Assembly (NCBI RefSeq): GCF_029278565.1
Contig: NZ_CP119559.1
Location: forward strand, 2,542,001 to 2,606,000
Length of the DNA stretch: 64,000 bases
Source: Haloarcula halophila
Lineage (GTDB): Archaea; Halobacteriota; Halobacteria; Halobacteriales; Haloarculaceae
Reading direction: 5' to 3'
Below the pieces are notes generated by a model. That model searched no databases and was not told where the DNA came from. It saw only the letters and a program-made list of their open reading frames with translations. Positions 57,790 to 63,202 of this stretch are shown here, in pieces. A program made the position numbers and the translations under genes. Numbering within the stretch: position 1 is the stretch's first letter; the number at the start of each line of letters is the position of its first letter.

Positions 57790-58713
57790 ATGTCAACCGA
57801 TGGATGCACTGTCTACACGGTCGCGGGTGCGAAGGGTGGGGTCGGTCGAACGACGACGAGCATCAACCTGGGGGTGGCCCTGGCGAACGCCGGCCACGAC
57901 GCCGCCGTCCTCGAACTCGACTTGGCGATGGCGAACCTCACCGAGTTCCTCGATGTCGAGGCGACGACGACGCTCCACGGGGTCCTCGCGGGGGAGGCGA
58001 ACGTCGCGGACGCGACGTATCCCGCCGCTGGCGGACTGTCGCTCGTCCCCAGCGGAACGTCACTGGAGGGGTACGCTCGGACCGACCTCTCTACGCTCCC
58101 AGGCGTCGTCGACACGCTCCGTGAGCGCCACGACGCTATCATGGTCGACACGCCGGCGGGACTGAGCGAGGAGACGGTACAGGCGATGGAACTCGCCGAC
58201 GAAGCCGTCTTGGTCTCGACGCCGCGTGTCTCGTCGGTCCGGAACGCCAACGAGACACTGCCACTCGCGGACCACGTCGAGACGGCTGTCAGCGGACTCG
58301 TTCTCACGAAGTCGGGGGCGGGTACCCCGGCGGTCGCGGACCACGTCGCGTCCTGTCTCGACGTTTCCGTACTCGGCCGTGTCCCTGAGGACGATGCGGT
58401 TCCGTACGCACAGGAGCACGGGGAGCCAGTCGTCGAGCATGCCCCACACAGCGGCGCGGCCGTCGCGTACCGGAAGATCGCTCGTCGTCTGGCGGAGCCG
58501 ACCACAGCGAATTCCTCGGCGATGGGACGGACCGACAGCACTGCGTGTGACGGGTCGGCGACTGGAGACCGGAGCAACGGTAGCCGGACACCTCAGGACT
58601 CGGAGAGTGGGGGATCGGATACTAGTACCGACGATATCGAACAGGCGGTCGGGAACGTGGGTACGTCGCCCCACTCGTTCGGCCGACAACTCCAGGACGT
58701 GTTCGATCGTTAA
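57790..58713 (+). CDS. MinD/ParA-type P-loop ATPase
   Basis: 307 residues. Deviant Walker A KGGVGRTTT at residues 15-23 keeps the signature Lys15, but the second Lys is Arg20. TLHGVLAGE, VDTPAGLSEET (Walker B-like DTPA) and LVLTKSGAG are typical of archaeal MinD. The last residues (SFGRQLQDVFDR) form a possible amphipathic membrane-targeting helix after an unstructured Ser/Asp/Gly tail. Cellular role is probably positioning of membrane-associated structures. It is convergent with aroA', overlapping it by 4 nt. Confidence 0.83.
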   Translation: MSTDGCTVYTVAGAKGGVGRTTTSINLGVALANAGHDAAVLELDLAMANLTEFLDVEATTTLHGVLAGEANVADATYPAAGGLSLVPSGTSLEGYARTDLSTLPGVVDTLRERHDAIMVDTPAGLSEETVQAMELADEAVLVSTPRVSSVRNANETLPLADHVETAVSGLVLTKSGAGTPAVADHVASCLDVSVLGRVPEDDAVPYAQEHGEPVVEHAPHSGAAVAYRKIARRLAEPTTANSSAMGRTDSTACDGSATGDRSNGSRTPQDSESGGSDTSTDDIEQAVGNVGTSPHSFGRQLQDVFDR

Positions 58714-59513
58714 GCTTCGACTGCCAGCCCCGCCTCGCGGAGCGCGTCGACGGCGTCGGCGTCGTCGTGGACGACCGCCGAGACCGCACGGGCGATCTTC
58801 TCCGGTTCGTCGTGCTGGAAGATCGACCGACCCATCGAGATACCGGCGGCGCCCGCGTCCATCGCGCCCCGGACCATGTCCAGCGTCTCCTCGTCGGTCC
58901 CTTTCGACCCGCCGGCGATGACGACCGGCAGCGAGGTGGATTCGACGACGTGCTGGAAGCTCTCGGCGTCGCCGGTGTAGCCCGTCTTGACCACGTCCGA
59001 CCCCAGTTCCTCGGCCAGTCGGACCGCGTGCCCGACCGCCTGGTTGTAGCCGTCCGCTTCGGGATCGATCTCGGGGCCGCGGGCGTAGGCCATCGCCAGG
59101 ACAGGCAAGCCGTAGCGGTCGGCCTCGCTGGTCAGCGTCGACAGTTCCTCGATCTGTTCGCGCTCGTAGGTGCTGCCGACGTTGATGTGGAAAGAGACCG
59201 CGTCGGCACCGACCCGGATAGCGTCTTCGACGGTCCCGGTCGTCCGTTTGTCGTTTTCGTCCGGACCGATCGTCGTCGAGCCGTTGAGATGTGCGATGTA
59301 GCCCGCGTCGTTCTTGTTCGGGTGGACGCGGTCGGCGATGCCCCGTTGGGTGAGGACGGCGTCGGCACCGCCGCGTGTGACCGCGTCGATCGTCGATTCG
59401 ATGTCTTTCAGCCCTTTGACTGCTCCCATCGTGATCCCGTGGTCCATCGGGACGATGACGTACTGCCCATCTGTCCCGATGCGTGTGAGCCGTGCGCGTT
59501 TCCCTGCGTTCAT
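58710..59513 (-). CDS. aroA': 2-amino-3,7-dideoxy-D-threo-hept-6-ulosonate synthase (AroA'), class I aldolase family
   Basis: 267 residues, DeoC/FbaB-type TIM barrel (GTDGQYVIVPMDHGITMG; DVVKTGYTGDAESFQHVV with the Schiff-base Lys; GGSKGTDEETLDMVRGAMDAGA). This family makes the aromatic precursor from aspartate semialdehyde and DKFP. Neighbours trpABC and aroB' support this rather than glycolytic aldolase. A TATA box TTTATAAG lies about 27 nt upstream on the minus strand, and a 10-mer shared with the trpC promoter lies just beyond it. Confidence 0.88.
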   Translation of the reverse strand: MNAGKRARLTRIGTDGQYVIVPMDHGITMGAVKGLKDIESTIDAVTRGGADAVLTQRGIADRVHPNKNDAGYIAHLNGSTTIGPDENDKRTTGTVEDAIRVGADAVSFHINVGSTYEREQIEELSTLTSEADRYGLPVLAMAYARGPEIDPEADGYNQAVGHAVRLAEELGSDVVKTGYTGDAESFQHVVESTSLPVVIAGGSKGTDEETLDMVRGAMDAGAAGISMGRSIFQHDEPEKIARAVSAVVHDDADAVDALREAGLAVEA

Positions 59514-59539
59514 GTTATGGGACAGTGTGGCAAGTACGC

Positions 59540-59547
59540 TTATAAAG
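59540..59547 (-). promoter_or_regulatory. TATA box of aroA'
   Basis: On the minus strand CTTTATAAG ends about 26 nt before the ATG at 59513, the usual spacing for a haloarchaeal promoter with a short or absent leader. The AGAAGTGTAC 10-mer (59552-59561, plus-strand reading) lies immediately upstream. Confidence 0.6.
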
Positions 59548-59551
59548 ATTG

Positions 59552-59722
59552 AGAAGTGTACCCGCGCCTTCAGGCGCGGAACGAATCCGACAACCCATTC
59601 CACAGTCCACTGTCGATAGCAGAGTCTACTCGGACAGAGGTGGTAGACTGCAAACCTTAATATCCCAATCCAGCGGTGTGGAACCGTGGGATTCCCCTGT
59701 CTTCAGGTACGGAAGGATGTCA
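59552..59722. mobile_element. IS200/IS605-type end relic (palindrome-associated element)
   Basis: The left end has CCGCGCC-TTCA-GGCGCGG (59562-59579) followed by acgaatcc; the right end has CCTG-TCTT-CAGG within gattcccctgtcttcagg (59690-59707) followed by ggaaggatgtcaag. These are end structures I associate with haloarchaeal IS200/IS605 (TnpB-type) elements, where both ends carry subterminal hairpins. No tnpA/tnpB is present in the roughly 170 bp, so it is a deletion derivative or MITE. Exact boundaries are uncertain. It lies between trpA and aroA'. Confidence 0.55.
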
Positions 59723-60556
59723 AGTGCGTTCCGGTTGCGGCCGGTTCTGTGCTCCCCGACGGGCACCCTCCTTCAGTTCGCGTGCCTTCGCTTCGAGGCG
59801 GTCGGCGACAGTCTCGGTATCGTCGCCGTTCTCGTGGCCCTCGGCGACGATGTCGATCAGCGCGGAGCCGACGATGATCCCGTCGGCGCCCGCCGAGACG
59901 ATACGCTCGGCGTGATCGCCGGTCTTGATACCGAAACCGACGGCCTTTGGCACGTCCCAGTCGCTCAGCCGGGCCAACGACTCCTCGGTAGCGTCGTCGA
60001 CGTCGTCGCGCGCGCCGGTGACGCCCAGGCGGGCCTGGACGTAGACGTACCCCGAGACCTGTGTCTTCATGCTGTCCAACCGGTCGCCGGTCGTCGTCGG
60101 CGCGACGATGAACACCAGATCGAGGCCGAACTCGTCACAGGCCGCCCGCAGCGGGCCGGCCTCCTCGGCGGGGAGATCGACGACGACAAGCCCCTCGATG
60201 CCGACTTCGGCGGCTTTCTCGACGAAGGGCCGTGGACCCTCCTCGCTGTCCCCGTACTGGAACACGAGGTTGTAGTAGGTCATACAGACCACCGGTACGT
60301 CCACGTCCAACTCTTCGACGAACTCGAAGTACCGACCGACGGTCATCCCCGCCTCCAGCGAGCGGACGATTGCGTCCTGGATGGTCTTCCCCTCGGCGAT
60401 CGGTTCCGAGAAGGGCAAGCCGAGTTCGATCAGGTCGGCTCCGCCCCGCTCTAACGCCTCGATGTAGGTCTGTGAGGCCTCGTAGTCGGGATCTCCCGCG
60501 GTGAGATAGGGGATAAAGGCCGGATCGTCGCGCTCGAAGACTCGCTCCAGTCCCAT
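59720..60556 (-). CDS. trpA: Tryptophan synthase alpha subunit
   Basis: 278 residues ([28 protein letters not shown]). Catalytic Glu in [15 protein letters not shown], phosphate loop [29 protein letters not shown]. It releases indole from indole-3-glycerol phosphate for TrpB. Its start overlaps the trpB stop by one base (TGATG). The last residues ([15 protein letters not shown]) run into the IS relic, whose TTGACATCC end appears to supply the stop codon. Confidence 0.93.
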
Positions 60557-61845
60557 CAGTGGTCACCGTCCGTGTGGCCGCTGTCGGGGTTCATCATCCC
60601 GCCGGTGTCGAAGACGGACATGTCGGGAGCGATGTCGAGGTCCCGTTTGCTCGTCTCCTCGATGACCGTCTCCAGGTCCTTGTCGCCGCGACCGGAGACG
60701 TTGACGACCACGCTCTCCCCCAGGTCGTCGTGGTGTTCTTCGAGATATCCGAAGGCGTGGGCCGTCTCCAGCGCCGGGATGATCCCCTCGTCCTGGGAGA
60801 GGCGGTGGAACGCCTCCAGGGCGTGGTCGTCGTCGACGTTGACCGGCGTCACGCGACCCTCGTCGACGAGGTGGGCCAGCTCCGGGCCGACACCGGCGTA
60901 GTCCAGGCCGGCCGAGACCGAATGTGACTCCATGATCTGGCCGTCCGAGTCCTGCAGGAGCTTCGTCCGGGCACCGTGGAGGACCCCCTCCTCGCCGGTC
61001 GAGAGGGTCGCGGAGTTGGGTGCGACGCCGCGCTCTTCGTCGACCGACAGCGAGGAGCCGCCGGCCTCGACGGCGTATAGCGCCACGTCGGGGTCGTCGA
61101 CGAACTCCGCGAACGTGCCCATCGTGTTCGAGCCACCGCCGGCACAGGCCAGGACGGCGTCCGGGAGCCCACCGGTCTTCTCGATGGTCTGCTCGCGGGC
61201 CTCTTCGGAGATGACCGCCTGGAAGTCCCGGACCATCTTCGGGAACGGGTGCGGGCCGACGATGCTCCCGATGACGTAGTGGGTGTTCTCGACGGTGGTC
61301 GCCCAGTCGCGCATCGTCTCGGAGATGGCCTCCTTGAGCGTTCCCCGGCCGACCGTGACCGGGTTGACGTCGGCACCGTTGATCCGCATGCGGAAGACGT
61401 TGGGTCGCTGGCGGGCGATGTCGGTCTCGCCCATGTAGATCTCACAGGGCATATCCAGATGCGCCGCCGCCATCGCCGTCGCGGTGCCGTGTTGGCCCGC
61501 GCCGGTCTCGGCGATGATGCGCTCTTTGCCCATGTACTTCGCCAACAGGACCTGGCCCAGCGCGTTGTTGAGCTTGTGTGCGCCGCCGTGCAGCAGGTCC
61601 TCACGTTTCAGGTAGACGTCGGTGTCGTACCGGGCCGAGAGCTGCTCGGCGTACTGTAACGGGGTCGGGCGGCCGCCGAAGTCGGCCAGGCGCTCCCGGA
61701 ACTCGTCCATGAAGCCGTCCTCGTTTTCCAGGACGTACCGCTCGTAGGCGTCGGCCAGCTCCTCGATGGCCGGCATCAGCGCCTCGGGTACGTACTGTCC
61801 GCCGTACTCGCCGAACTTGGGGTCGTGTGCGTCGTCCGTGCTCAT
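60556..61845 (-). CDS. trpB: Tryptophan synthase beta subunit
   Basis: 429 residues ([19 protein letters not shown]). PLP lysine in [23 protein letters not shown] phosphate loop, [12 protein letters not shown]. It condenses indole and serine to tryptophan. The ATG overlaps the trpC stop by 4 nt and trpA by one, so trpCBA is a translationally coupled operon. TrpB1-type by its context beside trpA. Confidence 0.95.
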
Positions 61846-62642
61846 GTCTGTGTCTCCGTCTCCGCATCGGTCAGTCGCCGCGTGTTCGCTGTCACGTCGG
61901 TGTCCGCGCCGTGATCCATGATGGCCGAGCCGACCAGCAGTGCGTCGGCACCGGCCCCGCGCATCCGCCGAACGTCCTCCGGCGTGTGTATGCCGCTTTC
62001 GGCAATGAGGGTGACGCTCCCGGGGACCGATTCACTGACTCGCTCGAAGGTCTCCAGATCGACTTCGAGCTTCGCCAGATCGCGGTTGTTGACGCCGACG
62101 ATGTCCGCACCGGCTTCGAGAGCGGTCTCGACCTCGGCCTCTGTGTGGGTCTCGACGAGGACCTGGAACCCCCGGTCACGGGCCGCAGCAACCAGGTCGG
62201 ACAGGTCGTCGGTCCCGTCTTCCTGTAGGAACCGGACGATCAGCAGGACCACGTCGGCCTCGACGACGTCTAACTGCGCCTCGTGGAGGATGAAATCCTT
62301 CCGCAGGACCGGGACGTCGACGGCCTCGCGAACCCGTTCCAGCGTCTCCGCTGAACCGCCGAAGTGGTCCGGTTCGGTCAGGACCGACAGCGCCGCCGCG
62401 CCGCCCGCGACCATCCGCTCGGCCAGCTCTACCGGGTCGTCGGTCCGTTCGCCGTCGGTCGTTGGACTGGTCGGCTTGATCTCGGCGACCAGCGGCACGC
62501 GTCCGCCGGCCTCGGCCTGTTCGAACGCCGCCGGCAGCGAGCGCGCGTCGACGGTGACCCGGTCGCTCCCCCCGACGCGCTCGCGTGCCGCCGCGAGTAT
62601 CGACTCCACTTCCGGTGCGATCGCACCTACACTATCGTCCAT
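61842..62642 (-). CDS. trpC: Indole-3-glycerol phosphate synthase
   Basis: 266 residues of TIM-barrel [16 protein letters not shown] near the N-terminus, [13 protein letters not shown] with the catalytic Lys, [17 protein letters not shown] and [16 protein letters not shown] at 62642 chosen; the preceding GTG at 62645 is also possible. First gene of trpCBA, with the palindromic candidate operator 15-28 nt upstream. The other trp genes (trpD, E, F, G) are not in the window. Confidence 0.93.
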
Positions 62643-62656
62643 CACTGAACACTAAC

Positions 62657-62670
62657 GTACAGAAGTGTAC
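62657..62670. promoter_or_regulatory. Palindrome GTACA-N4-TGTAC, candidate trp operator
   Basis: A perfect 5-bp inverted repeat with GAAG spacer, 15-28 nt before the trpC ATG, in the promoter (overlapping cttatgtacact on the minus strand). It resembles the TGTACA-type TRP boxes bound by TrpY in methanogens. The 10-mer AGAAGTGTAC (62661-62670) recurs upstream of aroA' at 59552-59561. Confidence 0.5.
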
Positions 62671-62731
62671 ATAAGGGTTACCCTCGGGAACGGGCCGCAG
62701 GTTGAAGACACGCCGGGTCGTCACTCCGGTT

Positions 62732-63202
62732 ATGGAGACATCGAGCGACGATGCGGGCATCTACGCGCGGGAGTCGGACTACCTCGACCGGTACGTCCAG
62801 TTCGGGGCGGCCGGTGACCGGGTCATCTCGCTGTCGTTCCCGACACACCCCGAGGACGTCACCAGCGACGACCACGCACTGCTGGATCGTATCGACGACT
62901 ATCTCTCCGGAACCGAAGACGGCTTCGAGGACGTGACCGTCGGGCTGACTGTGCCCACAGAGCAGCGTCGTGTGTTGGAGGCGGTCCGTGAGGTCCCCTA
63001 CGGCGAGAACGCCACCGTCGAGCAGGTCGCACGGATGACGCCGGACCTGGACGCGACCGAACAGGACGACCTCGCCGCGGTCCGCGAGGCGCTGGCTGGC
63101 AATCCGGTCCCGCTTCTCATCCCCGATCACCGGGTTCGTGACGGACCTAGTAGCGCCCCACCGGCGGTCGAACAGAAGCTTCGGTCGGTCGAGGGGTTAT
63201 AG
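62732..63202 (+). CDS. MGMT-like protein lacking the active-site cysteine
   Basis: 156 residues. The C-terminal half has the O6-alkylguanine-DNA alkyltransferase pattern (EVPYGENATVEQVARM, VREALAGNPVPLLIPDHRVRDG), but the PCHRV active-site Cys is replaced by Asp132 (PDHRV). No other cysteine is suitable. Such alkyltransferase-like (ATL) proteins bind alkylated bases and pass them to repair instead of transferring the alkyl group. It diverges from trpC and ends overlapping the CPBP gene by 6 nt. ATG 62732 preferred. Confidence 0.72.
   Translation: METSSDDAGIYARESDYLDRYVQFGAAGDRVISLSFPTHPEDVTSDDHALLDRIDDYLSGTEDGFEDVTVGLTVPTEQRRVLEAVREVPYGENATVEQVARMTPDLDATEQDDLAAVREALAGNPVPLLIPDHRVRDGPSSAPPAVEQKLRSVEGL

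Follow-up and report, generated by a model that had tools for sequence, protein, structure and literature searches.

A 10-bp-phased array of TGTACA-type boxes at haloarchaeal trp promoters, a candidate operator for the TrpY-family regulator

The question raised by this locus is whether a short palindrome ahead of trpC in Haloarcula halophila, part of which recurs upstream of aroA', marks an operator, and whether one repressor could act at both genes. The window, by which we mean the whole stretch of 64,000 nucleotides analysed here, carries trpC (61842..62642, - strand), the first gene of trpCBA, which encodes indole-3-glycerol phosphate synthase (421.8 bits to the haloarchaeal TrpC model NF041303, with the Pfam IGPS domain). 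The other ORFs are trpB (60556..61845, - strand), which also served as a tblastn query for the methanogen comparison, and trpA (59720..60556, - strand), followed by aroA' (58710..59513, - strand), which encodes 2-amino-3,7-dideoxy-D-threo-hept-6-ulosonate synthase (TIGR01949, 364.1 bits). The palindrome GTACAGAAGTGTAC occupies 62657-62670, 15-28 nt 5' of the trpC ATG (at 62642, - strand), exactly as a sequence-only reading of this DNA had reported. The 10-mer AGAAGTGTAC has only two sites, 62661-62670 and 59552-59561, and the second has the TATA-like CTTTATAAG immediately downstream, in agreement with the recurrence that had been noted ahead of the aroA' TATA box.

By itself, the palindrome occurs in the genome at about the frequency expected by chance. 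That reading had proposed a genome-wide scan and a comparison with relatives as checks. The scan of the 4.04-Mb genome gives a single exact palindrome; when one mismatch is tolerated there are 33 places, versus 20 for a reversed-pattern control, which is close to chance (0.44 copies of the one-mismatch form are expected per window). A looser pattern, GTNC-N6-GTNC-N6-GTNCA, was discarded as too unspecific, with 137 forward matches genome-wide. What goes beyond chance is a longer element, in which a third box continues a 10-bp register and which is kept, at a fixed distance from the trpC ATG, in 62 other haloarchaea.

Within the trpC promoter (CCCTTATGTACACTTCTGTACGTTAGTGTTCAGTGATGG, - strand), three boxes, TGTACA, TGTACG and TGTTCA, follow one another at start-to-start distances of exactly 10 bp, and the palindrome is formed by the first two; the consensus of the TRP box in the original Methanothermobacter TrpY work is reportedly TGTACA. 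Box 1 (TGTACA, 62666..62671, - strand) overlaps the downstream edge of the TATA-like CCTTATG (62670..62676, - strand), which runs into it, so the palindrome does lie over the likely promoter, as had been supposed. Box 2 (TGTACG, 62656..62661, - strand) stands 10 bp 3' of box 1, and box 3 (TGTTCA, 62646..62651, - strand), absent from the earlier reading, stands 10 bp 3' of box 2 and ends 3 nt ahead of the trpC ATG. The boxes overlap the core promoter through box 1 on the TATA-like element, the start site being a presumed one. The BRE-like position (62679..62684, - strand) reads GGTAAC here and CGCAAG in most relatives. An Rfam search of 59400-62800 gave no match to any known RNA leader element. 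Divergent from trpC, an ORF at 62732-63202 (+ strand) that resembles a short DNA-alkyltransferase-type domain (EVPYGENATVEQVA) starts about 60 bp from the array.

To describe the conservation of this block, we aligned 62 haloarchaeal trpC promoters with that of the window (63 sequences), from a trpC search of the genome contigs that gave 69 loci. The alignment was anchored on the boxes and the TATA element without use of the ATG, and it is free of gaps from the BRE-like CGCAAG (CGCAA at -12..-8 in most sequences) through the TATA-like CTTAT (-5..-1) and the three boxes (+0, +10 and +20) as far as the ATG (+28), which falls in the identical column in 63/63 sequences. Mean pairwise identity is 0.995 at the box G and C positions, 0.87 in the TATA element, 0.63 in the spacers and 0.38 in the DNA upstream of the BRE, so that even the TATA element varies more than these positions. 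In box 1, the G, the C and the A after them are invariant or nearly so; G and C are invariant in box 2 (63/63) and in box 3 (63/63), where the next A is found in 58/63. A weak possible fourth box (TGGACG, 62636..62641, - strand) overlaps the trpC start codon and keeps to the 10-bp spacing, with A at +32 in 56/63 and C at +33 in 50/63; the ATGnAC at +28 keeps the register, but the second codon and coding may explain it. Pairs of boxes number 88 at a lag of 10 and 61 at a lag of 20, versus about 3 expected, with none at 9 or 11, and the z-scores for these lags overstate the evidence because the sequences are related. In this genome, a sequence profile built from the trpC arrays (R1) matches trpC with E 7e-4 and one further position, C1:2364293, which sits inside an ORF and was dismissed as chance. 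Across the family, 54/57 genomes were matched by R1, mostly once; the strong matches that were inspected are trpC, and a weaker, recurrent one lies upstream of trpD. In a literature search that covered few subscription journals, we found no prior description of the haloarchaeal array.

The same kind of array is present at the second, unlinked trp operon, that of trpD. Its site in this genome is GTACAAATCCGTAC at C1:61578-61591, and in the trpD promoters of 30 haloarchaea the boxes occupy the in-register positions 0, 10, 20, 30 and 40, so that TGTACA-type boxes number three at trpC and take up to five positions at trpD. The trpD box pairs pile up at lags of 10, 20 and 30, lags 9 and 11 are empty, and the spacing to the ATG differs from that at trpC. 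A profile built from the trpD promoters (R2) finds trpD only in this genome (E 5e-14).

No TrpY homologue had been seen in the earlier reading, and one is in fact encoded outside the window, directly after hisB and about 0.8 Mb away (G000:C1:1760181-1760681). The protein (P0001) scores 225.8 bits against NF053754 (TrpY_fam; cut-off 180) over profile positions 1-163 of 163, a full-length match above the curated cut-off that makes it a member of the family, and it has a weak match to the ACT domain; no convincing relative of P0001 was found among solved structures. TrpY_fam is present in 105/110 genomes of the phylum, in one copy each, and in every haloarchaeon tested; haloarchaeal TrpY homologues have been noted but were unexamined (PMC6737238). 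The position of trpY after hisB in this genome is not that of a gene divergent from an adjoining trp operon. The haloarchaeal trpY promoters that we inspected have no array, those elsewhere have scattered single boxes only, and single methanogen cases suggestive of trpY autoregulation by an array dissolved on inspection. At L085:913-2001, trpY begins 3 nt past hisB, and in three further genomes (G057, G062 and G065) it is seemingly also close behind hisB, a placement that links a histidine gene with a regulator of the tryptophan type.

The array extends to other lineages, since in most methanogen families of the phylum that were tested a 10-bp array stands ahead of the leading trp gene, which is trpD, trpC, trpE or trpB2 by lineage. 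Because a first methanogen set had been selected for period 10, the leader promoters were defined by tblastn alone and scored against dinucleotide shuffles, with a lowest possible p of 0.0025. In genomes with a TrpY of the DRRV-D type, the array is found in 22/28 leader promoters (p <= 0.033); in those with a DRKVV-type TrpY or no TrpY, it is found in 0/9 (p >= 0.25). The six failures among the 28 comprise four lone trpD genes (family f14), one borderline case (f22, p 0.07) and L254, in which the leader was apparently mis-placed by the tblastn start and an array is present upstream, and which was still counted as a failure. The recognition helix reads ...IEIPxTxIAxxxGVDRRVVDxT in the array-bearing families and IELVPTKIAxALxVDRKVVVxAI in the array-less families f13 and f16, and the two genomes of f18 lack both TrpY and array. 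This match between helix and array may rest on few evolutionary events, because f13 and f16 may be related, and the four lone f14 trpD genes, which have a DRRV-D TrpY yet no array, count against a role of TrpY at the array. The loci in which the DRKVV helix accompanies trp promoters without a TGTACA array are L238-L241 (f16) and L293-L302 (f13), and the f16 trpY gene lies close to trpC/trpD; together these features suggest a changed operator.

From these comparisons, the array is very probably a tryptophan or aromatic operator of some kind. The most probable regulator is the one TrpY-family protein encoded in this genome, which combines a helix-turn-helix with an ACT-like domain, and we think it likely that TrpY acts at the array as a repressor. 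The three TGTACA-type boxes share one helical face and extend from the TATA element to about the point at which a nearly leaderless trpC transcript would begin, and tryptophan-bound TrpY dimers would fill neighbouring boxes cooperatively and keep out TBP, TFB and RNA polymerase. This exclusion would shut trpCBA, and the trpD operon would be shut likewise through its own similar array, which has up to five positions. When tryptophan is scarce, TrpY would leave and both operons would be transcribed. Binding by TrpY, tryptophan as its ligand, repression and the start site are the parts of this scheme that we infer, and the position of the boxes on one face between TATA and start fits a repressor that blocks assembly of the pre-initiation complex. 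In Halobacterium, a lack of aromatic amino acids induces both the trpCBA-aroA' and the trpD operon (PMC4162585), which is consistent with the putative tryptophan-dependent repression. The TrpY homologue of Thermococcus does not bind the trp promoter and does not regulate trp (PMC6737238), so homology alone gives no function, and this counts against our assignment. More tentatively, and with rather more doubt than confidence, the pair of operator and regulator could be phylum-wide and predate the split between haloarchaea and the methanogens related to them, with a row of TrpY dimers on phased boxes over the whole core promoter, the trpC start codon as a fourth box, and loss of the array alongside a change in the recognition helix.

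The array could be a true operator for tryptophan or aromatic control and yet be bound by another protein, such as the Lrp/AsnC-type LrpA2 (Trh1) or the TrmB paralogue HAH_0923, with TrpY in some other role. We regard this as unlikely, given that the tie of TrpY to its boxes and to tryptophan is experimental in Methanothermobacter, where TrpY is a repressor with Trp and the TRP boxes that it binds lie between trpY and trpE (PMC6737238), and that within our sample the array occurs only where TrpY has the DRRV-D helix; on its side are the 14.9-fold induction of lrpA2 without aromatic amino acids in Halobacterium (PMC4162585), the co-expression of HAH_0923 with the trp operons in Haloarcula hispanica, in a study that puts it forward as a candidate (PMC10817205), and the location of trpY behind hisB with a promoter of its own that lacks the array. 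The block could also be an unusually strong core promoter with no dedicated regulator, its boxes being spacing or initiator sequence, as the presence of BRE and TATA and the end of the block near the expected start site would allow. The exact 10-bp repeat with its empty lags at 9 and 11, the extension to up to five positions at trpD at another distance from the ATG, and the failure of R1 and R2 to match any further promoter in this genome render this very improbable.

The proposal that one repressor has separate operators at trpC and aroA' drew on the exact 10-mer, with one box, that the two promoters share, and as a whole it is almost certainly wrong. Its trpC half stands, in that a conserved TRP-box-type site and a TrpY homologue are both present, but the aroA' copy (59552..59561, + strand) is a single box in the end of an IS200/IS605-type insertion at the trpA/aroA' junction (59539..59723), of about 185 bp and without an ORF, and we do not consider it an operator. 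Alignment of the junction places these ~185 bp where ATAAT would stand between the end of trpA and the conserved CGTACTTGCCACA ahead of aroA'; the insertion is absent there in four other Haloarcula, and the stop codon of trpA comes from it, as do the TATA-like box and the 10-mer. Parts of it have dispersed copies in other Haloarcula genomes, several of them beside ORFs, of which the one tested is OrfB_IS605, and a hairpin (GCGCCTGAAGGCGC) lies near its end. The 10-mer was not found in the aroA' leaders of the four other Haloarcula or of the other haloarchaea inspected, and the most plausible reading of the sharing is a coincidence within the end of a transposon. The 10-mer might have been co-opted at aroA', yet there is one box and no conservation. 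In most haloarchaea, aroA' lies close behind trpA, and in Halobacterium it is part of the trpCBA operon (PMC4162585), so that control through the trpC array and not through a site of its own is expected in relatives. With its stop codon and TATA-like box, the insertion may, in this strain, have broken up the trpCBA-aroA' operon. A separate motif, TTGYYASA, is found in 48/62 haloarchaea (L016-L077), mostly 16-23 nt 5' of the aroA' ATG, and lies at 59527-59534 (- strand) in the window.

The array thus provides a precise candidate operator, a named candidate regulator and a putative regulon of two operons, testable in genetically tractable species, and it would offer haloarchaeal genetics a candidate tryptophan-repressible promoter. 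Among regulators of trp genes in Archaea, Tar (TK0271) of Thermococcus kodakarensis, compared here by description only, similarly controls trp and aro operons, but it is an activator whose gene lies in the aro operon. TrmB acts in the genus of the window itself: in Haloarcula hispanica, trmB deletion alters both trp operons, but neither has a TrmB binding site or motif, and the authors call for an additional factor behind this common control (PMC10817205). Because the effect is indirect, the array is a natural candidate for the missing link.

The closest likeness is to TrpY and the TRP boxes of Methanothermobacter thermautotrophicus (trpY-trpEGCFBAD), with which the haloarchaeal system shares TGTACA-type boxes over a trp core promoter and an encoded TrpY-family protein with HTH and ACT domains. 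In contrast to Methanothermobacter, haloarchaeal trpY is unlinked, standing after hisB, and has no boxes of its own; it thus shows neither the linkage nor the autoregulation described in that organism, which counts against TrpY as the regulator, and the putative binding would be at two separate target operons. The 10-bp register (three boxes for trpC, up to five positions for trpD) is a feature of the arrays described here, and Methanothermobacter may share such strict phasing. We accordingly file the array under the known TRP-box regulation, set apart from the Methanothermobacter case by the unlinked regulator gene, the lack of autoregulatory boxes and the two targets.
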